DNA of 40,097 nt from a virus. The translations under genes were made by a program, and so were the position numbers. Numbering within the stretch: position 1 is the stretch's first letter; each line of letters starts with the position of its first letter. Below are positions 1 through 40,097 of this stretch, in pieces. The notes under the pieces are model-generated. The model did not search any database. It had not been told where the DNA came from and saw nothing but the letters and a program-made list of their open reading frames with translations. The DNA is taken from positions 1 to 40,097 of the IMG/VR virus record IMGVR_UViG_3300031825_000038, one strand, 5' to 3'.

Positions 1-261
1 CACTTCGACTCGATCGAGGACGCCCTCGCGAGCATTGCGGACGACGACGACGACGCGGACCACGTGGTCATCGGCGACGAACTGCTGTGCCGCAACTGCC
101 GCGACAAGCGCGAGTGTGAGCGCGTCGGCCACGACTGGGTCCACCACGAGTCGTTCCTCGGCCCCTACGACAGCCGGACGGTTCCCGAGTTCTGGACCTG
201 CTCGCTCTGCGGTCACGGGTCGAAGACGGACCCGACCCTCACGCACGAGGTGACCACGTGA
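1..261 (+). CDS. Cys-rich protein, 5'-truncated by the window edge
   Basis: The frame is open from base 1 and ends in TGA at 259-261, giving the last 86 residues of a protein whose start lies outside. Two CxxC pairs are visible (CRNC, then CSLC in WTCSLCGHG), suggesting a zinc-ribbon fold; an Asp run (DDDDD) lies upstream. It is nearly identical to the C-terminal third of the 39198-39941 product, differing by a few substitutions and one extra codon (TAC GAC AGC against TAC AGC). It is therefore probably another allele of that gene rather than a separate locus. Its stop overlaps the GTG of the next gene. Function unknown. Confidence 0.75.
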   Translation, partial: HFDSIEDALASIADDDDDADHVVIGDELLCRNCRDKRECERVGHDWVHHESFLGPYDSRTVPEFWTCSLCGHGSKTDPTLTHEVTT

Positions 262-286
262 CCGACCCGACGCCCCGCGAGCAGGC
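1..286 (+). repeat. Imperfect direct repeat of 39684-39966
   Basis: The first ~286 bases align with 39684-39966 with a few substitutions and one 3-base indel (extra GAC around 168). The copies diverge after the shared start MTDPTPREQA of the next gene. Because identity is not complete, they are either two alleles from different molecules or two diverged copies in one genome. Confidence 0.8.
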
Positions 287-626
287 GCTGGAGATGCTGT
301 CGTTGCACGGCTCGTCCTCTTGGTCCGAAGACGCCCGGGGGATGATCTGCGACGGCTGCTCCACCCGCATCCAGGGCGTCGGTCTGGCGCGTCACCAAAT
401 CGAGATTCTCGCCGCCGCCGCGCTGCTGCCGGACCGCGAGGAGTGGGGCGTGCAGTTCGAGCGAACAACTGACCCGACGATGGACAACCCGAGCGGCGTC
501 ATCACAGTCGAGCAGGGGGTCCACGGCGAGCGGGTCGCTCGCGCTGCGGTCAAGAACGGCGCCCCGATCAGTGCTCGCAACCGACGGGCGGTCCACCGCT
601 ACGTGACCGAATGGAGGACGGCATGA
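258..626 (+). CDS. Hypothetical protein, VHRYVTEWRTA family, copy 1
   Basis: A 122-residue protein starting at GTG 258, overlapping the upstream stop by 4 bases. The N-terminus reads MTDPTPREQALE. A CDGC motif near residue 32 could form half of a zinc site. The C-terminus ends VHRYVTEWRTA, identical to the end of the 1399-1872 product. Its first residues match the truncated gene at 39938, and its body is collinear with the protein produced by joining 40097 to 1673 (HQ..LAAA.LLPD.EEW.V). I do not recognise a function; such small soluble proteins are common between replication and packaging genes of actinophages. Confidence 0.8.
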   Translation: MTDPTPREQALEMLSLHGSSSWSEDARGMICDGCSTRIQGVGLARHQIEILAAAALLPDREEWGVQFERTTDPTMDNPSGVITVEQGVHGERVARAAVKNGAPISARNRRAVHRYVTEWRTA

Positions 627-799
627 GCGACGAGTACACGCCGATGGCGGAGCGCCCGTTCGGCATGGTGCGACTGGTTTGGCATGTCTGGCGTTACGGC
701 CACGCCGTTCGGACAAACCGGGGCATCACCACGCCGCCCGGGTACTCCGGTCGGGGCTGGCTCTACGTGTGCGAGTGCGGAGGGGTGGTGGCGAAATGA
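623..799 (+). CDS. Small hypothetical protein (58 aa)
   Basis: ATG 623 overlaps the previous stop (ATGA), so translation is probably coupled. The product begins MSDEYTP and ends WLYVCECGGVVAK, with one CEC motif. The MSD(D)EY start recurs in the genes at 796 and 32045, suggesting shuffled gene beginnings. No domain recognised. Confidence 0.7.
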   Translation: MSDEYTPMAERPFGMVRLVWHVWRYGHAVRTNRGITTPPGYSGRGWLYVCECGGVVAK

Positions 800-1239
800 G
801 CGACGACGAGTACACGAGCCAGTTCCGCGGGATGGTTCTCGACTGGATGGAACTGCCGACCAAAGAGCAGGTGTTCGCGGCTGTCGCCGCTCACGACGCC
901 GAGGTGGCGCGGGCTGCGCGAGTCCTGCCGAGCGTGGAGGACGGCCTGGGTGACGCCTTCGAGGCGTTGACGGCGGCGCTCAACCGTGGCGATCACAGCC
1001 TCGGGATGGCAGCCCGCGCGGTGATGGACCAGGCGCGCTCAGCTATCCGTGAGGTCGCTACCGCCCTGGCCGACGCCCCGACCCGTGAGCAGGTCGAGCG
1101 AGAGGCGGCGGAGAAGGCGCTGCGAGACGCGGCAGACGATCCGGCGGTGGCCGGCTACGTCCACAACAACCAGGCCGGCAATGCGCGGGCCTACATGCGT
1201 GCCCGCGCCGACCGTCTGGCCGCAGGAGGGGAGGCGTGA
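796..1239 (+). CDS. Hypothetical protein, RAARVLPSVED family, copy 1
   Basis: A 147-residue helical, Ala/Arg/Glu-rich protein; ATG 796 overlaps the preceding TGA. It shares three blocks with the 1869-2414 product: AAHDAExARAARVLPSVED, a PxREQVERxAAEKALR block, and the terminal RADRLAAGG. At DNA level 885-943 is almost identical to 2015-2073, so the two genes arose by duplication. The middle parts differ completely, which suggests mosaic exchange. No known function; likely a coiled-coil or helical bundle. Confidence 0.8.
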   Translation: MSDDEYTSQFRGMVLDWMELPTKEQVFAAVAAHDAEVARAARVLPSVEDGLGDAFEALTAALNRGDHSLGMAARAVMDQARSAIREVATALADAPTREQVEREAAEKALRDAADDPAVAGYVHNNQAGNARAYMRARADRLAAGGEA

Positions 1240-1406
1240 TGGCCCGTCGCCCCGTCGTTCACAAGTTGAACGCCTACACGTTCCTGGGGAGGCGCGCCGA
1301 GTGTGCCCTGACCTCGGAGTGGCTGAACGACACTGACAGTTGGGATGAGGTGACTTGCCCGGACTGCCTGGCGAGCCGAGCGACCCAGGAGGTTCCCCGT
1401 GGCTGA
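1239..1406 (+). CDS. Small CxxC protein (55 aa)
   Basis: ATG 1239 overlaps the TGA of the previous gene; the upstream GGAGGGGAGG is a strong ribosome site. The product MARRPVVHKLN...CPDC...EVPRG has a single Cys near residue 22 and a CPDC pair at 40-43, resembling half of a zinc ribbon. Its end overlaps the next GTG by 8 bases. Function unknown. Confidence 0.7.
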   Translation: MARRPVVHKLNAYTFLGRRAECALTSEWLNDTDSWDEVTCPDCLASRATQEVPRG

Positions 1407-1872
1407 CATCCCCACCCCCGAGCAGGTCGAGGCGATTGGTGACCGCCTCGCCATTGCGAACGGGCTCGCGCCCGACGAGTCGATGGCCCGCTGGTACCGG
1501 AAGGACATCGCCGCCCTCCTGGCCGCCTACGACGCCCTGGCGGCAGAGGTGCTGGCGGCGCACGGGGAGCAGCACATCGCGACTGTCGACGGCGACCTTT
1601 GGTGCACGACCTGCGACCGGACCATCGGGTCGGCTGAGGACGACGCAGAGACCGACCGGGTGATCGCCACCCACCAGGCCGACATGCTCGCCGCTGCCGG
1701 GCTGCTGCCGGACGGTGAGGAGTGGGCCGTGGAGACGACGGGGACGAATCCCGACCACATCGACATGGACGACGAGGCCCAGGCGCTGCTGTGGCTGCCA
1801 CCGGACGGCGTGGACAAGGACCACGGGTGGCACGCCGTCCACCGCTACGTGACCGAATGGAGGACGGCATGA
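1399..1872 (+). CDS. Hypothetical protein, VHRYVTEWRTA family, copy 2
   Basis: A 157-residue protein from GTG 1399. It begins with a PTPEQVEAIGDRLA module, also seen in diverged form in the 2561 product (IPEQVEAIRERF), followed by a CTTC motif (WCTTCDRTIG) and the HQADMLAAAGLLPD...VHRYVTEWRTA C-terminus shared with copy 1. Bases 1546-1672 are identical to the last 127 bases of the window. In the circular interpretation the C-terminal two thirds of this gene would be read from the start at 39938 instead. Function unknown. Confidence 0.8.
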   Translation: MADIPTPEQVEAIGDRLAIANGLAPDESMARWYRKDIAALLAAYDALAAEVLAAHGEQHIATVDGDLWCTTCDRTIGSAEDDAETDRVIATHQADMLAAAGLLPDGEEWAVETTGTNPDHIDMDDEAQALLWLPPDGVDKDHGWHAVHRYVTEWRTA

Positions 1873-2414
1873 GCAAGATTCCCACCGAGGCCATCGAGGC
1901 GGCGAGCGAGGCTGCGCACCGGATCTACGTCCAGGACGTCGGGCAGACGCTGGCGACCCGTGATCTCACGAATGCGATCACCGACGCTGTTCTCGCCGCC
2001 ATCCTGCCGCACCTCGCCGCTCACGACGCCGAGGCTGCGCGGGCTGCGCGAGTCCTGCCGAGCGTGGAGGACGTAGCGGCGGTGCTGTTCGAATGCCTCA
2101 ACCCCGGCGCTCACTGGGCGACGGCGCTCGTTGGCGCGCGAAGGCCGCTCAGCGTTGAGGCGCAGGTGGTTGACACGCATCGGACGGCAGCGGCTGCCGT
2201 CCTCGCCCTGTTCCCCGACGCCCCGTCCCGTGAGCAGGTCGAGCGGGATGCGGCGGAGAAGGCGCTGCGGGAGGCGGCTGCCGAGATCGACTGGACGTGG
2301 GAGACATTCGTCGCCAACGACGGCATCACGTCGATCCGTGAGCACGGCAAGACGCCGGGCGAACTGCTGCGCGAACGCGCCGACCGCCTGGCCGCAGGAG
2401 GGGACCATGCGTGA
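1869..2414 (+). CDS. Hypothetical protein, RAARVLPSVED family, copy 2
   Basis: A 181-residue protein; ATG 1869 overlaps the stop of the preceding gene. It shares AAHDAEAARAARVLPSVED, DAPSREQVERDAAEKALREAA and RADRLAAGG with the 796-1239 product, while the first 45 residues (MSKIPTEAIEAASEAAHR...) and the centre are distinct. Predominantly helical and charged. The order VHRYVTEWRTA gene then RAARVLPSVED gene occurs twice between 258 and 2414, pointing to a tandem cassette duplication. Function unknown. Confidence 0.8.
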   Translation: MSKIPTEAIEAASEAAHRIYVQDVGQTLATRDLTNAITDAVLAAILPHLAAHDAEAARAARVLPSVEDVAAVLFECLNPGAHWATALVGARRPLSVEAQVVDTHRTAAAAVLALFPDAPSREQVERDAAEKALREAAAEIDWTWETFVANDGITSIREHGKTPGELLRERADRLAAGGDHA

Positions 2415-2568
2415 CGGATGGATCGCCCGCCTCGGCTTCCGGCTCGAACAGCACAGGTGGGGTCGTCGCGTTGTCCTGCGACGCCGCCCCGAACTGGACG
2501 GCCCCGGGAACGCGTACATCAACCGCCTGAACGGACACCTGGTCATGACGGAGGCGACCCGTGCCTGA
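2407..2568 (+). CDS. Small basic hypothetical protein (53 aa)
   Basis: ATG 2407 overlaps the previous gene by 8 bases and has GGAGGGG just upstream. The product is Arg-rich (MRDGWIARLGFRLEQHRWGRR...), compatible with nucleic-acid binding, but no domain is recognisable. It ends 8 bases into the next gene. Confidence 0.65.
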   Translation: MRDGWIARLGFRLEQHRWGRRVVLRRRPELDGPGNAYINRLNGHLVMTEATRA

Positions 2569-3034
2569 CACCCTCACCCCCGAGCCGAATGAAGGCGATC
2601 GGGCGCTCCACCAACATTTCGGCTCCGGGAATGAAGGCGAACGAACCCTCATCCCCGAGCAGGTCGAGGCGATCCGGGAGCGGTTCGACCAGCCGCAGAA
2701 CTACGACGAGGGCTCGCTGCTGCGGTACCTGGCCCTTGAGCGGTCGGCGGACGACGTGCTGGCGCTCCTGGCCGACCACGACGCCCTGACGGCGGAGGTG
2801 GGGCGGCTGCGGGAGTCCGCCGAGGCCGCGCGCCACGTCACGCGCATGGAGGAACGTCGCGCTGAGGCTGCCGAGCGGAAGGTGGCGGCCGTGCGGGCGG
2901 GCCACCTCCGGCGCCCGTGGCGCTCTGGTGACTTCGTGGAGTTCGGGCAGAGCGACTTCCCGGACATCTGTGACCACGATCACAACACCTGGCCCTGCGA
3001 GACCATCCGCGCGCTCGACGGCGAGGCCAGCTGA
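2561..3034 (+). CDS. Hypothetical protein with coiled coil and WPC motif
   Basis: A 157-residue protein from GTG 2561. An EQVEAIRERF module follows a low-complexity start that contains a short internal repeat (GNEGER/PNEGDR). A charged helix spans roughly residues 65-110 (LLADHDALTAEVGRLRESAEAARHV), probably a coiled coil. The end, CDHDHNTWPCETIRALDG, resembles the end of the 34797-35174 product (VEWPCRTVRAIATAL), so the two may share a C-terminal module. Function unknown. Confidence 0.75.
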   Translation: MPDTLTPEPNEGDRALHQHFGSGNEGERTLIPEQVEAIRERFDQPQNYDEGSLLRYLALERSADDVLALLADHDALTAEVGRLRESAEAARHVTRMEERRAEAAERKVAAVRAGHLRRPWRSGDFVEFGQSDFPDICDHDHNTWPCETIRALDGEAS

Positions 3035-3120
3035 TGCGCCGGGTGCTCGAGGTGGCACGAGACGGTGAAGTGGTGCGCGCCGACGACTTTGGCACCGACG
3101 ACCAGGAGGGCGACGGGTGA
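3034..3120 (+). CDS. Tiny acidic protein (28 aa)
   Basis: ATG 3034 shares one base with the TGA of the preceding gene, and the frame runs 28 codons to TGA at 3118-3120. The product begins MRRVLEVARDGEVVRADDFG and then becomes acidic. Start-stop coupling argues for translation, but at this length it could be chance. Confidence 0.4.
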   Translation: MRRVLEVARDGEVVRADDFGTDDQEGDG

Positions 3121-3166
3121 CGACCCGACCATCCGTGCGCATGGGATTCCAGCCGAGGGGGACGAC

Positions 3167-4000
3167 GTGACCACCTGCCAGGACTGCCACCTCCAGCGCC
3201 CGTGTGGGTGTGATGACGACCCGGCAGAGCGCCGCCGGGTGCGAACCACCCAGCCGCCACAGATTGCCACCCACGCGCCCGCCTCGCGCCCGAACACCCT
3301 CGGTCTGGACGGGAATACCAACCGTGTCATTCCAACCCCTCAGACGGGCACCAGCGAGGCCGGAGACCACCGCTCGCTCGCGCTGCGCCGTGACCTGACC
3401 GCCATCGCGTCGGCCTGGGACGAGCTGGAGGACGCGCTGGCGCGTGACGGTATGGCCGACCGCTCCGGCGTGCGAGTTCCGCCCACTTCCAGACCGCCCC
3501 TAGACCCGGCCGTCGCGGACGTCGTGGCGGAGGTCGGACAGTGGGTCGTCTTCCTGGCGCACGTGCTGATGGACGAGACCGCCTGGACGCCGCCGGCCGA
3601 CACCTCGACCAAGAGCCTCATCGACGCCATCAAGCCGCGCGCCGGTCACTTCACCGAGCACGGGGACCCGATGCTCGCCCAGGCCGTCCAGGACGACGCC
3701 GACCGCTACGCGGCACTCGTCATCCGCACGGCCCGCCCGTCGGGATCGCGGGTGTGGCGACTAGGGCTTCCCTGCCTGGAGCACGCCACCAGCGACATGG
3801 GCGAGCGAGTGCCCTGCCGCGGCCAGTACGCCACCGTGGTGCGTGCCGACGAGACGATCGGCGACCTGGTGTGCACGAAGGACAGGAGCCACACCCTGAC
3901 GCCCGAGGAGTGGGTGCGTGGGCAGCGCCGCGGATCCTTCGACGAGCAGGCCGTGGACACGTTGCTGCGGCAGATTCGTGTGCGGCACAGCGCGGGATGA
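3167..4000 (+). CDS. Hypothetical zinc-finger-like protein (277 aa)
   Basis: GTG 3167 is preceded by AGGGGG and gives a protein opening MTTCQDCHLQRPCGC, a Cys cluster typical of a zinc knuckle. The centre (about 75-190) is helical, with DLTAIASAWDELEDAL and VGQWVVFLAHVLMDETAW. A second Cys group (LPCLEH...VPCRGQY...LVCTKDRSH, about 203-243) could form another zinc finger, followed by a helical tail. Proteins of this layout commonly precede the HNH/terminase genes in actinophages; their role is not known to me. It is the last gene before the promoter/hairpin region. Confidence 0.8.
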   Translation: MTTCQDCHLQRPCGCDDDPAERRRVRTTQPPQIATHAPASRPNTLGLDGNTNRVIPTPQTGTSEAGDHRSLALRRDLTAIASAWDELEDALARDGMADRSGVRVPPTSRPPLDPAVADVVAEVGQWVVFLAHVLMDETAWTPPADTSTKSLIDAIKPRAGHFTEHGDPMLAQAVQDDADRYAALVIRTARPSGSRVWRLGLPCLEHATSDMGERVPCRGQYATVVRADETIGDLVCTKDRSHTLTPEEWVRGQRRGSFDEQAVDTLLRQIRVRHSAG

Positions 4001-4021
4001 GCATCCACCCAGCGTGTCGGG

Positions 4022-4069
4022 TTGACAGTGGGGGGCTTGACAGGGATCCTGCGATCGTTCCAGTAGTGC
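4022..4069 (+). promoter_or_regulatory. Tandem TTGACA boxes, candidate late promoter
   Basis: Two perfect TTGACA hexamers (4022-4027 and 4037-4042) lie 15 bases apart in the 125-base gap before the head genes. For the first, a 17-base spacer leads to GATCCT; for the second, 16 bases lead to TCCAGT. Both -10 candidates are weak. The placement fits a late promoter, perhaps needing an activator. The identical boxes could also be operator repeats. Confidence 0.45.
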
Positions 4070-4074
4070 ACCCC

Positions 4075-4101
4075 AGGCCCCGAGCGGAGACGCCGGGGCC
4101 T
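4075..4101 (+). terminator. GC-rich hairpin before the head operon
   Basis: AGGCCCCG (4075-4082) pairs with CGGGGCCT (4094-4101) around an 11-base loop and is followed by TCGTGTGTGTG rather than a U tract. It can end transcription coming from the upstream small-gene operon. Because the candidate promoter at 4022-4069 lies just before it, it could also act as an attenuator for late transcription. Confidence 0.6.
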
Positions 4102-4125
4102 TCGTGTGTGTGGGGGTGAGTCCCC

Positions 4126-4500
4126 ATGGCTGGCCGTCGCTGCCCCGGACGTGACCGCATCGGCGAGCGCATCGTCGCCTGTCCCACGATCCTGATCCAC
4201 GGCGAGCCCTACTGCCCACGCCACACCCGCGCCCGAGGCACCCGGCAGCAGCGGGGGTACGGCACCACCCACGACGCACTGCGAGCCGACTGGCAGCGAC
4301 GCATCGACTCCGGCGAGATCATCCACTGCGCAGACGGGTGCGGCGCCCGCATCACCGGCACACGCTGGCAGCTCGGACACACCGCAGACCGACTCAGCTA
4401 CCTCGGGCCTCAGACGATCGCCTGCAACGAACGCGACGGCGGGCGACGCGGCGCACACCTGAGCAACGCGACGCGACGACAGCCCGAACCCGACGCTTGA
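4126..4500 (+). CDS. HNH-type endonuclease next to terminase
   Basis: A 124-residue protein from ATG 4126. Visible features are C30/H33 (YCPRH), a C68-x3-C72 zinc pair (HCADGC), the first His of the HNH fold in WQLGHTADR (H85), and the C-terminal ACNERDGGRRG (C100-N101). This is the compact HNH architecture often coded immediately before terminase genes. In related phages such proteins assist terminase in genome processing by nicking DNA; that role is inferred here from position. The remaining DNA up to 4659 shows small hairpins only and no convincing gene. Confidence 0.8.
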   Translation: MAGRRCPGRDRIGERIVACPTILIHGEPYCPRHTRARGTRQQRGYGTTHDALRADWQRRIDSGEIIHCADGCGARITGTRWQLGHTADRLSYLGPQTIACNERDGGRRGAHLSNATRRQPEPDA

Positions 4501-4659
4501 AGCCCCAGGGGGGCACCCCTCAGGGTGTGTCAGCGGACCGCCGGAGAGGGACGAAAAGTCCGCGGCGGAGGCAAACATCCCCGGCTCGACCCTTGACGAG
4601 TGGCGCGCGAGGCGTCCTCGAGCCCCGTGCTGGCGCGATGCCGGCGAGGAGTGATGGAC

Positions 4660-5217
4660 ATGACCAGCGGTGGACGTCGCAACCGGAACGGCGCGGTCGC
4701 TGACCCGGACTCGGCTCGTTCGGATCGTCGCGGCTACAAGCTGACGGCGCTGCCGGCCGAGGGGTACGCCGGCCAGGCCCCGGACTTCCCGCTGCGCAAG
4801 CGTCTGATCTGGCACGAGTGGTTCGACGGCTCGGGCAAGGATCGCGAGCTGCATCGCGAGGTCGACGATGACGCGACCGAGGGCGTGTGGGAGCGCGAGC
4901 TCGAGCTGTGGTCGTGGCTGTGGCGCACCCCGCAGGCGTGCGCCTGGTCGATGCCGTCGGAGTCGTGGCGGCTGCACACGATCGGGCTGTATGTCCGGAC
5001 CTTCGTGCTGTGCGAGTCGTCGGAGGCGACAGCCGCCGACAAGAACAGCCTGCACCGCTTCGCGGACCAGATCGGCATGACGACCGCCGGTCTGGCCGAG
5101 ATGGGCTGGGCCGTAGCGAAGGACGAGCTGGCCGACCGCCGCGACCCCGAGACTGCGCCGGCCGCTTCGTCGGGCTCACGGTCGCGGATGAAGGTCGTCT
5201 CCGGCAGTGGCGGCTGA
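4660..5217 (+). CDS. terS: Terminase small subunit (probable)
   Basis: Probable DNA-recognition subunit of the packaging motor. The chosen ATG at 4660 is 8 bases after GAGGAG (4646-4651); an in-frame ATG at 4654 lies too close to it. The 185-residue product has a basic N-terminus (GGRRNRNG), then a conserved-looking LPAEGYAGQAPDFPL segment and Trp-rich helices (ELELWSWLWRTPQACAW). Together with its place directly upstream of, and overlapping, the large terminase, this matches actinophage small terminases. Sequence similarity in this family is low, so the call rests largely on synteny. Confidence 0.75.
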   Translation: MTSGGRRNRNGAVADPDSARSDRRGYKLTALPAEGYAGQAPDFPLRKRLIWHEWFDGSGKDRELHREVDDDATEGVWERELELWSWLWRTPQACAWSMPSESWRLHTIGLYVRTFVLCESSEATAADKNSLHRFADQIGMTTAGLAEMGWAVAKDELADRRDPETAPAASSGSRSRMKVVSGSGG

Positions 5218-6841
5218 CGACCTCGCCATCGACTTCGATCCGCTGCACACCCTCGGCTTCCTGGCAACGGACTGGATCGAGGCGCACTGCAAGGTCCCGG
5301 GTGGGGTCTATGAGGGTGATCCGCTGGTCTTCAACGGCTGGCAGCTCTTCGTCACGGCGAGCCACTACCGGATCAAGCCGGACGCCTTGGTCGACCCGCG
5401 TCGGCTACTCGCACCGTTCCACTACCGGCGCTCGGTCGTCGTCGGCCCACAGAAGGCCGGCAAGTCGCCGTGGGGTGCTGGGTTCCTGCTGTTCGAGGGT
5501 GTTGGCCCCGCGCTGTTCGCCGGGTGGGCCAAGGGTGGTGAGGTCTACCGCTGCGCCGACCACGGCTGCGACTGTGGCTGGGAGCGACCATACGAGCTTG
5601 GCGAGGCGATGGGTGTCCCCCGTCGCAAGTCCCTGATTGGGCTCCTGGCGGCGGCGGAGTCGCAGACGGCGAACGTCTACGAGCCGTTGCAGACGCTCAT
5701 CCACAACGGCCCGCTGGGTGCGTTCGTGAAGGTTCGCGAGGGCTTCGTCCGCCTGCCGAACCGTGGCCTCATCGTCCCGCTGACGTCGAAGGCGCGTTCG
5801 AAGCTCGGCCAGCCGCTGACCTGTGCCCTAGGCGACGAGTCGGGCACGTACACCGCCGAGAACGGCGTGTTGGGCACCTGGCAGACGATGCGCCGCGGCG
5901 TTGCCGCGATGCAGGGCCGCACGGTCGAGCTGACCAACCCGTGGGACCCGATGGAGAACTCAGCGGCCCAGCAGGCGTTCGAGTCCCGGCGCCCTGACAT
6001 CTTCCGCTACTACCGCAAGCCGCCGGCCGACCTGTCCTACGGAAGCAGGCGGGATCGGCACAAGATCCATGTGCACGTGTACGCCGACTCCCCGTGGGTC
6101 GACCCCAGCGCGATCGACGCTGAGGCGGCCGAGCTCGTCGAGACGGACCCGACGCAGGCGGAGCGGTTCTACGGCAACAGGCTCGTGCAGGGCCGCGGCG
6201 CCTACCTCACCGAGGCTGAGATCACGGGCCAGCAGGTCTTGGTCACCCGGGAGCCGCTGCGGCGGATCTGCCTTGGCTTCGACGGGTCGTTCTCGAAGGA
6301 CTGGACCGCGATCCGCGCCGAGGATGTCTCGCGGCTGCGATTCACCCCCACCTATGACGTCGGCGGAGACCTGCGCCCGACGTTCTGGAACCCCGATGAG
6401 CACGGCGGTCGCATCCCGCGCGGCGAGGTGCTGTCGGCGTTTGCGTGGCTGTTCGCGAACTACGACGTGGAGCGCGTCTACTGCGACCCGCGCGAGTGGG
6501 AGACCGAGATCGACGACCTCGCCCTCACCTACGGCGAGGAGCGGGTCGTGAAGTGGCCGACGAACCAGATCCCACGCATGTTCGACGCCCTGGTGCGGTA
6601 CCGCACCGACCTGCTGGCCGGCACGACGCACCACCTTGCCGACCAGGCATGGAAGACGCACGTGCTCAACGCGCGGATGGTCGCCAAGGCTGGCGACAAG
6701 TTCATCCTCGGCAAGCCCTCCGAGCACCAGCACATTGACCTGGCCATGGCTGACGTCCTGGCCCACGAGGCCGCCGCGGATGCCCGCGCTGAGGGCTGGT
6801 CGGCCGTACCCGAGCCCGCGTACTTCCGATTGCCGCGCTGA
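5207..6841 (+). CDS. terL: Terminase large subunit
   Basis: ATPase/nuclease that drives DNA into the prohead. GTG 5207 overlaps the small-subunit gene by 11 bases. In the 544-residue product the Walker A-like loop is GPQKAGKS (80-87) and the Walker B-like motif is ALGDES (207-212). The C-terminal RNase H-like nuclease is marked by GFDGS (D359), YCDPREWE (425-432) and HIDLAMADV (D511, D516). A Cys-containing loop, CADHGCDCGW (116-125), lies between the ATPase motifs. Length and motif order are normal for a siphophage large terminase. Confidence 0.95.
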   Translation: MAADDLAIDFDPLHTLGFLATDWIEAHCKVPGGVYEGDPLVFNGWQLFVTASHYRIKPDALVDPRRLLAPFHYRRSVVVGPQKAGKSPWGAGFLLFEGVGPALFAGWAKGGEVYRCADHGCDCGWERPYELGEAMGVPRRKSLIGLLAAAESQTANVYEPLQTLIHNGPLGAFVKVREGFVRLPNRGLIVPLTSKARSKLGQPLTCALGDESGTYTAENGVLGTWQTMRRGVAAMQGRTVELTNPWDPMENSAAQQAFESRRPDIFRYYRKPPADLSYGSRRDRHKIHVHVYADSPWVDPSAIDAEAAELVETDPTQAERFYGNRLVQGRGAYLTEAEITGQQVLVTREPLRRICLGFDGSFSKDWTAIRAEDVSRLRFTPTYDVGGDLRPTFWNPDEHGGRIPRGEVLSAFAWLFANYDVERVYCDPREWETEIDDLALTYGEERVVKWPTNQIPRMFDALVRYRTDLLAGTTHHLADQAWKTHVLNARMVAKAGDKFILGKPSEHQHIDLAMADVLAHEAAADARAEGWSAVPEPAYFRLPR

Positions 6842-24978: not shown

Positions 24979-25280
24979 CCCAGGTCAAGCACGGTGACAC
25001 CCACGACATCACCATCGCCGTCACCAGCGACGGTGCGGCGGTGGACCTGACCGGCGCCACGATCCGCGTCCTGGCCAGACCCACAGGCACCGCCGACACC
25101 GCCACCGTCCTTGCGCACACCGTCACCGACGCGGCCGCCGGCACCCTGAGCCACACCCTCACCGGCACCCTCGCGGTCGGCCCCTGGGATGTCGAGGTCG
25201 AGGTCACCCGCGCCGGGAAGATCACCACCTACCCCACGGCCGGCTACCTGCGGCTCGACGTGGCGGCCGACATCGGCTAA
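24975..25280 (+). CDS. Ig-like baseplate/fibre accessory protein (BppU N-terminal-like)
   Basis: GTG 24975 overlaps the fibre stop. The 101-residue product, VKHGDTHDITIAVTSDGAAVDLTGATIRVLARPTG...GPWDVEVEVTRAGKITTYPTAGYLRLDV, has the strand pattern of the N-terminal domain of BppU-type baseplate proteins. It is the last gene of the rightward late operon, ending just before the bidirectional terminator. Confidence 0.75.
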   Translation: MTQVKHGDTHDITIAVTSDGAAVDLTGATIRVLARPTGTADTATVLAHTVTDAAAGTLSHTLTGTLAVGPWDVEVEVTRAGKITTYPTAGYLRLDVAADIG

Positions 25281-25289
25281 CCCCGGCGC

Positions 25290-25347
25290 GGGCGCACGAA
25301 AGCGGCCCCACTCTCCTTCGGGAGGGTGGGGCCGCTTTCGTGCGCCC
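25290..25347. terminator. Bidirectional terminator between convergent operons
   Basis: Arms 25290-25316 and 25321-25347 are 27 bases each, pair along their whole length with a single G-T wobble, and are closed by a TTCG loop. An inner AAAGCGGCCCC...GGGGCCGCTTT gives A- and T-rich flanks on both strands. It separates the rightward late operon from the leftward gene at 25364-26197. Confidence 0.9.
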
Positions 25348-25363
25348 GGGGGCCAGGTTGGGG

Positions 25364-26758: not shown

Positions 26759-28000
26759 TCAGTGGCCGATCTGGCGACGCGGGGACAGAAGGTCCCCGAG
26801 GGCAGCGACGGCCCGTGCAGCCGCCTCCGAGGTGATGTGGGTGTACCCGCGCGTCACGGTCGCCGACGAGTGCCCGAGGATCTGCATCCGGGTCTGCTCG
26901 TCCACCCCCAGGTCGGCTAGCAGAGTCGAGCAGGTGTGGCGGGCGCTGTGCAGGGGGACATCCGGCAGGTCCGCCTGGCGCAGGGCGGCATCCCATGCCT
27001 CGGCGTCGTCGCGAGGGTCTGTCACCCCGAAGACCAGTCCCTCTGGGCCTGGAGGGTGCGTGTCGATCCACGCGGACAGTCGGTCGGCTACGCGCGGCAG
27101 GAGCGGGACCTGCCGCCATCCGGCTCGACTCTTGGGGCGCGTGAGCCACAGGCCGCCGGACACGTGCCGCGCCTCCTGGTCGGGCGGGATGAACACCGAC
27201 CGACCAGGGCACTCGGAGCCGCGCTTACGTCCGCAGTCGGGGTCGCACCCATGCCGCCAGGAGAGCCGCTGCAACTGCCACGCCACGGTCAGCATCGGGA
27301 CGTCGAGGTCGAGCATTGGGACGGTGATGCCCAGCCGCTCCCCCTGACGCAGCCCAGCCGTCAGCGCGAGGGCCCACATCAGACTCGCCCGCTCGTCGTC
27401 ATCCACGGACGACAGCAGCTCGCGCGCGTCGTGGGCCGTCAGCGCGGGACGCACGGCAACGGCCCGTCGGGGCGCGTCGGTGTGCGCCTTGTCGGCGACG
27501 TTCTTCGTCACCAGACCGGCTCGCCCTGCGTCTCGCAGAGCCACGGTGAGGATGCGATGCGCCTGGAGGGCCGTCGTGGTGGACAGCCCGAGCCCCGCCG
27601 GCTTGGGGCTCGTGATCGTGTCGCGCAGGTGGTACACGTGCGAGGGAGAGAGCCGCTCGAGGCGCACCTTGCCGAGGATGGGCACGATGTAGCGCTCGCT
27701 GTACCCGCGGTACGTCTCCGCGGTGCGCGGCTTGAGCCCGGGAGCGCTCTGTGCCAGCCACAGCGGCATCCAGGTGGCGACCGTGGGTGACGACGTGGGC
27801 AGGTCGCCGTAGCGCCCGAGGTCGGCGTTCAGCCGCTTGAGCTTGTCGGCTGCCACGTCCTTCGACCGGGACCGCACGACCTTGACGCGGCGCTTCCCGC
27901 CCGGCCCGGGCGGTAGTTCGACGCGGGCGGTCCACAGCCCACGGGAGTCCTGGAAAAGCGCCCCGGCCCCGGCGTCGCGGCGCTTGGTCTTTGACGGCAC
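26759..28000 (-). CDS. int: Tyrosine-family integrase
   Basis: A 413-residue site-specific recombinase from GTG 28000 (minus) with GGAGGTG upstream. It has an N-terminal arm-binding region (ALFQDSRGLWTARVELPPG), a SAM-like core-binding domain (about 73-170) and a catalytic domain with R218 (TAGLRQGE), K290 (TRPKSRAG), H351-x2-R354 (HSARH), H377 (LGHSS) and Y386 (TRGYTHI). An inserted loop, HGCDPDCGRKRGSECPG (C252, C256, C264), could bind zinc. The attP core and arm repeats lie directly upstream of the gene. Confidence 0.95.
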   Translation of the reverse strand: MPSKTKRRDAGAGALFQDSRGLWTARVELPPGPGGKRRVKVVRSRSKDVAADKLKRLNADLGRYGDLPTSSPTVATWMPLWLAQSAPGLKPRTAETYRGYSERYIVPILGKVRLERLSPSHVYHLRDTITSPKPAGLGLSTTTALQAHRILTVALRDAGRAGLVTKNVADKAHTDAPRRAVAVRPALTAHDARELLSSVDDDERASLMWALALTAGLRQGERLGITVPMLDLDVPMLTVAWQLQRLSWRHGCDPDCGRKRGSECPGRSVFIPPDQEARHVSGGLWLTRPKSRAGWRQVPLLPRVADRLSAWIDTHPPGPEGLVFGVTDPRDDAEAWDAALRQADLPDVPLHSARHTCSTLLADLGVDEQTRMQILGHSSATVTRGYTHITSEAAARAVAALGDLLSPRRQIGH

Positions 28001-28036: not shown

Positions 28037-28132
28037 CGGCATATGCCGGAGCAGTTCGGAACACTACCGCACGGCACCCGCTCTGACCTGTGCTTTCACC
28101 TCATCAGCGCTCGTCTCAGGGTACCATGCGAC

Positions 28133-28179
28133 GGACTTTTAATCCGCGGGTTGTGGGTTCGATCCCCACGGGGCCCACC
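28133..28179 (+). other. attP: attP core, 3' half of tRNA-Lys(TTT)
   Basis: The segment reads from the anticodon stem of a tRNA-Lys (CGGACTTTTAATCCG, anticodon TTT at 28138-28140) through the T arm (GTGGGTTCGATCCCCAC) to the acceptor strand and ACC at 28177-28179. No matching 5' half with a complementary acceptor strand lies upstream, so this is not a whole tRNA but the phage copy used to restore the host gene on integration. It lies in one piece next to int, so the sequence represents the excised or virion form. Confidence 0.9.
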
Positions 28180-39022: not shown

Positions 39023-39201
39023 CCGCCCTCGTATCCCGCGCCTGGTGTCTGGTGGATCCGTGGACTCCGTGTCCGTGGACGACATCGGGCACACCGGCGG
39101 AGGTGGAGCGTGCGGTGGCTCGGCACATTCGTGAGCAGCCGACGCATGCGGTGCAGACGAGCAGCAGACCGAGCGAGACGAGCGAGAGGACGACGACATG
39201 A
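39019..39201 (+). CDS. Small hypothetical protein (60 aa)
   Basis: GTG 39019 overlaps the previous stop and its own stop overlaps the next ATG. MTALVSRAWCLVDPWTPCPWTTSGTPAEVERAVARHIREQP then a Ser/Thr-rich tail. No family recognised. Confidence 0.55.
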   Translation: MTALVSRAWCLVDPWTPCPWTTSGTPAEVERAVARHIREQPTHAVQTSSRPSETSERTTT

Positions 39202-39941
39202 GCGAGACGAGCATGACGGCCAGCGACGAGGACCGGGACGCGCTGGCGCGGGCGCTTCACGACGCCTCCGAGATCGGGGGGGTGACCCCGCCATGGGATC
39301 GTGAGCAACCCGAGGGCCGTCAGCATTGGCTCGCGCTCTCCGACGCTGCCCTGGCCTGGTTCGCCTCCCGTCCCCAGGCCGCACCGAGTGCCTGCTGCGA
39401 GGCGACCGATGTGGTTGACGGCCACTGGCTGGTCGAGGTCCACCAGCACTGCACGTGCGGTGACGGCGGTCCGATGGGTCACGAGCCCGGATGTGGCACG
39501 GTTCCGTTGATCGACCTCGCGGGCCTTCCGGGCGGGGAGCACCTGCTGGCAGCACCGAGCGTGAGCCGGCCAGAGGCGGACGCGCTTCCGTCATGGGCGA
39601 CCGCGCTGGATCACGTCTGCATCACGGCGAAGTGCAGTGGCTGCGGTGAGCACGTGTCCCAGTTCGAGGACTCAGGAGTGGCCCACTTCGACTCGATCGA
39701 GGACGCCCTCGCGAGCATTGCGGACGACGACGACGACGCGGACCACGTGGTCATCGGCGACGAACTACTGTGCCGCAACTGCCGCGACAAGCGCGAGTGT
39801 GAGCGCGTCGGCCACGACTGGGTCCACCACGAGTCGTTCCTCGGCCCCTACAGCCGGACGGTTCCCGAGTTCTGGACCTGCTCGCTCTGCGGTCACGGGT
39901 CGAAGACGGACCCGACCCTCACGCACGAGGTGACCCCGTGA
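39198..39941 (+). CDS. Cys-rich multi-zinc-finger-like protein (247 aa)
   Basis: ATG 39198 opens a 247-residue acidic protein. Residues 1-60 are helical (EDRDALARALHDASEIGG, LSDAALAWFASRP). CC and CTCGDGGPMGHEPGC follow, then CSGC, CRNC and CSLC pairs spread over residues 147-235, suggesting two or more zinc ribbons. The Asp run (DDDDD) is unusual. Bases 39684-39941 recur at 1-261 with small differences, so this is the complete form of the truncated gene at the window start. Function unknown. Confidence 0.75.
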   Translation: MSETSMTASDEDRDALARALHDASEIGGVTPPWDREQPEGRQHWLALSDAALAWFASRPQAAPSACCEATDVVDGHWLVEVHQHCTCGDGGPMGHEPGCGTVPLIDLAGLPGGEHLLAAPSVSRPEADALPSWATALDHVCITAKCSGCGEHVSQFEDSGVAHFDSIEDALASIADDDDDADHVVIGDELLCRNCRDKRECERVGHDWVHHESFLGPYSRTVPEFWTCSLCGHGSKTDPTLTHEVTP

Positions 39942-40097
39942 CCGACCCGACGCCCCGTGAGCAGGCGGCGGAGGTGCTGGCGGCGCACGGGGAGCAGCAC
40001 ATCGCGACTGTCGACGGCGACCTTTGGTGCACGACCTGCGACCGGACCATCGGGTCGGCTGAGGACGACGCAGAGACCGACCGGGTGATCGCCACCC
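39938..40097 (+). CDS. VHRYVTEWRTA-family protein, 3'-truncated by the window edge
   Basis: GTG 39938 overlaps the previous stop. MTDPTPREQAAEVLAAHGEQHIATVDGDLWCTTC... starts like the 258-626 gene and then, from 39971, is base-for-base identical to 1546-1672 inside the 1399-1872 gene. If the molecule is circular with 40097 joined to 1673, the frame is kept and the gene ends at 1872 as a 119-residue protein. That protein would be collinear with the 258-626 product. Confidence 0.75.
   Translation, partial: MTDPTPREQAAEVLAAHGEQHIATVDGDLWCTTCDRTIGSAEDDAETDRVIAT
39971..40097 (+). repeat. 127-bp terminal repeat identical to 1546-1672
   Basis: The last 127 bases match 1546-1672 without a mismatch; the base before differs (39970 G, 1545 A). 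Together with the imperfect 1-261 / 39684-39941 repeat this indicates overlapping ends of a circular or circularly permuted genome assembled from mixed alleles. Confidence 0.8.

Follow-up and report, generated by a model that had tools for sequence, protein, structure and literature searches.

The window analysed here, the whole 40,097-nucleotide stretch of IMG/VR virus record IMGVR_UViG_3300031825_000038, is best read as a looped assembly-graph contig of an unintegrated cos-type actinophage, the first 1,545 bases of which form a branch from a co-occurring strain with one extra unit of a gene array; we give this whole reading a probability of roughly 0.78. The path of the de Bruijn contig would begin on the branch 1-1545, enter the genome cycle at 1546, circle the genome once and halt on meeting the same 127-mer again. 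Accordingly read, the main genome would be one unit of ~38,425 bp from a temperate phage, and the branch would most likely be the right-arm allele of a close strain. The short allele would be the product of unequal homologous recombination between two paralogues, A and E, which lost the equivalent of 291-1545. Novelty is low, as phage and assembly effect are both of familiar kinds and the proposed recombination event is plausible but ordinary. The case illustrates that a phage genome may be complete even though its contig lacks end repeats, and that an overlap from end to interior escapes the usual circularity test. Furthermore, the junction resolves the loss of a cassette from a phage right arm down to the codon, and 1-1545 should be kept out of same-molecule gene counts and completeness estimates.

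An overlap of probable assembler k-mer length

The features around the two copies of the overlap are:

1546 to 1672, plus strand: second copy of the 127-base overlap, within gene 1399-1872
39684 to 39970, plus strand: short-allele counterpart of 1-290, with variants up to 287 and the junction at 288-290
39938 to 40097, plus strand: 5' part of a 119-codon fused gene, continuing at 1673-1872 in the short allele
39971 to 40097, plus strand: putative loop-closing graph vertex, a 127-base exact copy of 1546-1672

The final 127 bases of the window are identical to 1546-1672; the match extends by 0 bases to the left, and the right copy ends with the contig. Upstream of it, the alignment of 1-287 to 39684-39967 is broken by SNPs at three positions (84, 256 and 278) and by one 3-base in-frame gap, until the alleles part at 288-290 and 39968-39970, respectively. 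The blastn value of 96.1% over 1-310/39684-39990 includes a final 20 bases that already lie beyond this divergence point. Both the exact copy and the imperfect one (described as 39684-39966 against 1-286) had been recognised in a first-pass annotation of this DNA, and both hold. Within the open reading frame 39198-39941, the allele differences (a synonymous CTG/CTA change, one Asp codon and a last residue of T or P) leave the frame open, so they are likely real alleles and not sequencing noise. Among phage records, the protein encoded by this frame had no match beyond 37 residues in Gordonia phage Lilbeanie, and among viral contigs it had none.

The same annotation had taken the exact overlap for a graph overlap, which fits its length: of the k values 33, 55, 77, 99 and 127 used for metaSPAdes in the JGI workflow (PMC10604447), 127 is the largest. 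We infer from this that the window was assembled by metaSPAdes with a k of 127. Contigs that metaSPAdes breaks at repeats or strain variants have end sequences of maxK length in common (PMC10914622), and strain variants are known to show up as bubbles in phage assembly graphs (PMC10563150). In the other loci compared, no exact terminal overlaps were found. At base 1 itself, branch and short path do not fork at k = 127, since their match runs for just 83 bases up to the first SNP; low coverage or trimming are the sole explanations we offer for the start of the branch there.

When 39970 is joined to 1546 (or, to the same effect, 40097 to 1673), the product is an open reading frame of 119 codons, VTDPTPREQAAEVLAAHG...AVHRYVTEWRTA, which combines the start of gene A (258-626) with the end of gene E (1399-1872). 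That this join stays in frame and yields a 119-residue protein collinear with the 258-626 product had been proposed before, and the alignment bears it out (37.7% identity, 130 aligned columns, E=7e-20). Counting the overlap once, the circle measures 38,425 bp, in agreement with the earlier estimate of ~38.4 kb, and 39,683 bp if it is closed via 1-1545.

Genome end, gene order and DNA state

Packaging and integration features of the window are:

4126 to 4500, plus strand: HNH-like packaging-associated gene, named by its position and by homology to the relatives' end gene
4548 to 4575, plus strand: left genome end (cos), by homology, with GACCGCCGGAGA preceding and GGGACGAAAAGTCCGCGGCGGAGGC following the boundary
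4600 to 5217, plus strand: first gene of the linear genome, in the position of a terminase small subunit
5207 to 6841, plus strand: terminase large subunit (PHROG 19179, E=5e-124)
26759 to 28000, minus strand: tyrosine integrase
28132 to 28179, plus strand: attP core, the 3' half of a tRNA-Lys(TTT) gene, with phage DNA on both sides

At 4547/4548 the homologous end sequence, GACCGCCGGAGA continued by GGGACGAAAAGTCCGCGGCGGAGGC, runs through the window uninterrupted. The records of Arthrobacter phage Richie and Streptomyces phage Dubu begin at the base homologous to this point, the conserved end of Richie reading ...CCGGTGA before and GGTGTCTGGATGGTGCGGAGGGTTC after the boundary, and in these two phages as well as in Arthrobacter phage EvePickles, base 1 lies ~0.6 kb upstream of the terminase large subunit. 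Furthermore, 13 of 61 related viral contigs, by a manual count from the listed contig start positions, begin no more than 1 base from the homologous cos point. Two relatives (G001 and G003, of 41,867 and 39,952 bp) carry the terminase ~0.6 kb from one end and an HNH-like gene at the other; in the window, the HNH-like gene 4126-4500, for which Pfam and PHROGs gave no match, directly precedes the cos site. With a cos inside the window at ~4547/4548 and this layout in the relatives, 1-4547 would thus be the right end of the linear genome, despite its place at the left of the contig.

As judged from this homology, the window is a permuted contig of a predicted cos phage with a linear genome of ~38,425 bp, whose virion DNA would probably be linear, from 4548 round to 4547, and circular only in the cell. 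The former description as a circular genome is therefore retained for the joining of the ends and restated in these terms for circularity. As a practical aside, the cos-like end at 4548 is useful for orienting actinobacterial phage and metagenomic contigs of this type.

Permuted contigs are typical of headful phages, which would speak for headful packaging with permuted ends, or else the overlap might be a true terminal repeat. Such an origin is hardly credible, however, as the repeat does not stand at both ends but begins at 1546, its length equals an assembler k, and the ends of the relatives are fixed at one base; on account of this conserved fixed end, headful packaging was rejected.

Gene order in relatives points the same way as the proposed join. 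In one viral contig (G002) and in the Cellulomonadaceae prophages G126, G115, G053 and G108, a single stretch carries the genes that are split between the window ends, namely homologues of the genes at 29-38.5 kb followed by homologues of those at 3-6.8 kb, and the gap from rep to the HNH-like gene is ~4.1 kb in G002 versus 4.0 kb predicted for the joined short path. Since the relatives place the right-end genes of the window beside its left-end genes, the two ends appear to be neighbours. The earlier claim that the ends join is thus supported independently of the overlap, by the internal cos/terminase boundary and by the neighbour order in related phages and prophages.

The presence of both a tyrosine integrase gene and an attP indicates that the phage is temperate, with predicted integration at tRNA-Lys. 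Because phage genes flank the tRNA-Lys half on both sides, this site is taken as attP and the assembled DNA not as an integrated prophage; ARAGORN found no complete tRNA in the window, as expected for a half gene. The 48-base core occurs exactly at no fewer than 119 places (at least) in actinobacterial genomes, many of them in Cellulomonas or Geodermatophilaceae, including Geodermatophilus. Uninterrupted cos and attP sites would fit circular or concatemeric DNA, or virion ends joined in the library. As Cellulomonadaceae harbour prophages with a terminase 61-75% identical, this family is a likely host. In addition, a 60-base palindrome-like inverted repeat (25289-25348, 90% identical to its own reverse complement) lies downstream of the gene ending at 25280 and is perhaps a terminator.

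A tandem gene array with two proposed alleles

The branch and the array genes discussed below are:

1 to 1545, plus strand: branch, long allele, holding the end of a gene of the 39198-39941 type and the genes listed below
258 to 626, plus strand: array paralogue A, ending in AVHRYVTEWRTA
796 to 1239, plus strand: array gene C, paralogue of 1869-2414 (45% identity, 140 aligned positions, E=2e-23)
1399 to 1872, plus strand: array paralogue E, proposed crossover partner of A at codon register 291/1546
1869 to 2414, plus strand: array gene F, paralogue of 796-1239

The genes on the branch are 258-626, ~623-799, 796-1239, ~1239-1406 and the 5' part of 1399-1872. Positions 1-4100 form a diverged tandem array with a period of ~1.1-1.28 kb and units ~65-68% identical. 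The best 50-base offset bin (1100-1149) holds 71 pairs of shared 9-mers, versus a maximum of 18 both across 200 codon shuffles and elsewhere in the window. In the same right-arm region of the related prophage G238 (L224, 6338-7415), tandem duplicates of recent origin were also observed, 98% identical over 81 bases and with a spacing of ~400.

The short path departs from the long one at 288-290 and rejoins it from 1546, where the register is codon-exact: the GAG of gene A at base 291 and the GAG of gene E at 1546 are paralogous codons. The alleles hence differ by one array unit, that is 1,255 bp (291-1545) plus the codon indel, and the missing 1,255 bp equal the offset between paralogues A and E, as expected of unequal crossing-over. 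Unequal recombination between paralogues would explain three features together: the size, the in-register junction and a fused frame that stays open. Both the layout and the SNPs between the alleles suggest that 1-1545 derives from a coexisting second strain, with the alleles on different molecules; the branch from a second haplotype that had been proposed earlier therefore stands, refined in that it is not arbitrary but carries exactly one diverged array unit more. With units only ~65-68% identical, the extra one cannot be a fresh duplication; more probably, the short lineage lost a unit or the extra one was acquired from another phage, so that the change would be one of loss or exchange. It is also possible, albeit doubtful, that the array is a standing copy-number polymorphism of the phage population, in which unequal recombination at conserved gene ends gains and sheds whole cassettes so frequently that one sample contains both states.

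Alternatively, both copies might reside on one genome, after a tandem duplication, longer than k and so not bridged by the assembler, of part of the 39198-39941 gene together with A/E-type genes, which would imply a genome of at least ~40 kb with additional sequence linking 40097 to base 1. Although the region already is an array of tandem paralogues and the G238 prophage has recent duplicates there, we regard this as quite improbable: the contig runs on from 1672 with no visible second exit marking a divergence, 1-287 is a close allele of 39684-39967 and not a diverged unit, and the contig already has the total length and gene set of a single genome as large as those of the relatives.

Exchange with more distant phages is documented by the viral contig G018, which (L078, 1-305) matches 1771-1875 exactly (105 bases) and 2013-2129 at 98%, and beyond this stretch has other genes and another terminase. 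As it carries the 105-base end of gene E joined to another downstream gene, recombination at such gene ends seems to reach beyond this phage; a role of short boundary sequences in phage mosaicism has been proposed before (PMC3029335). By analogy, 1-1545 might stem from a more distant mosaic phage sharing only ~1546-1875. This is unlikely, however. Bases 1-287 share ~98.6% identity and the gene order with the right end of the genome, which is what a close strain would show; the G018 match sets in at 1771 and not at a 127-mer junction; and no other viral contig matched the branch.

The only relatives of the A/E array family found were G018 and three weak host-genome matches, and a sample of 115 genomes of one Geodermatophilus family gave no match. 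Phage records held neither DNA similar to 1-2500 nor a protein similar to 1399-1872, and in viral contigs the exact patterns of genes D and E (1549 onwards), and gene F, were found only in G018. Neither allele turned up in any other public viral contig, in a search from which near-identical records may be omitted.

Comparison with known systems

Contigs of the type handled by COBRA and Phables (PMC10914622, PMC10563150) resemble the window in having an exact sequence of maxK length at the contig end, and in a fork from within-population variation whose path loops back. In contrast to those, the overlap here is end-to-interior instead of end-to-end, and it would therefore be missed by a simple end-repeat test for circularity. 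With known gene-end mosaicism, the window has in common near-identical gene-end stretches of 40-120 bases followed by different downstream genes (A/B, E/F and G018), but the exchange took place, by our reading, between paralogues of a tandem array with the codon register kept.

Among cos-type actinophages, Richie, EvePickles, Dubu and phiSASD1 likewise have a genome end ~0.6 kb upstream of the terminase large subunit, and the group has a conserved end sequence (GGTGTCTGGATGGTGCGGAGGGTTCAAA in Richie) and an HNH gene in the right-end region (in Richie, the last gene). The window departs from them by its 38.4 kb and a tyrosine integrase at tRNA-Lys, and its terminase DNA is only ~65% identical to theirs. 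Finally, the Cellulomonadaceae prophages G126, G238, G115, G053, G108 and G231, with terminases 61-75% identical to that of the window, keep the HNH-like gene, the cos region and the terminase in the same order, four of the six with rep or recombination genes upstream as in the window, whereas they differ from it in lying inside bacterial genomes and in their small-gene content.
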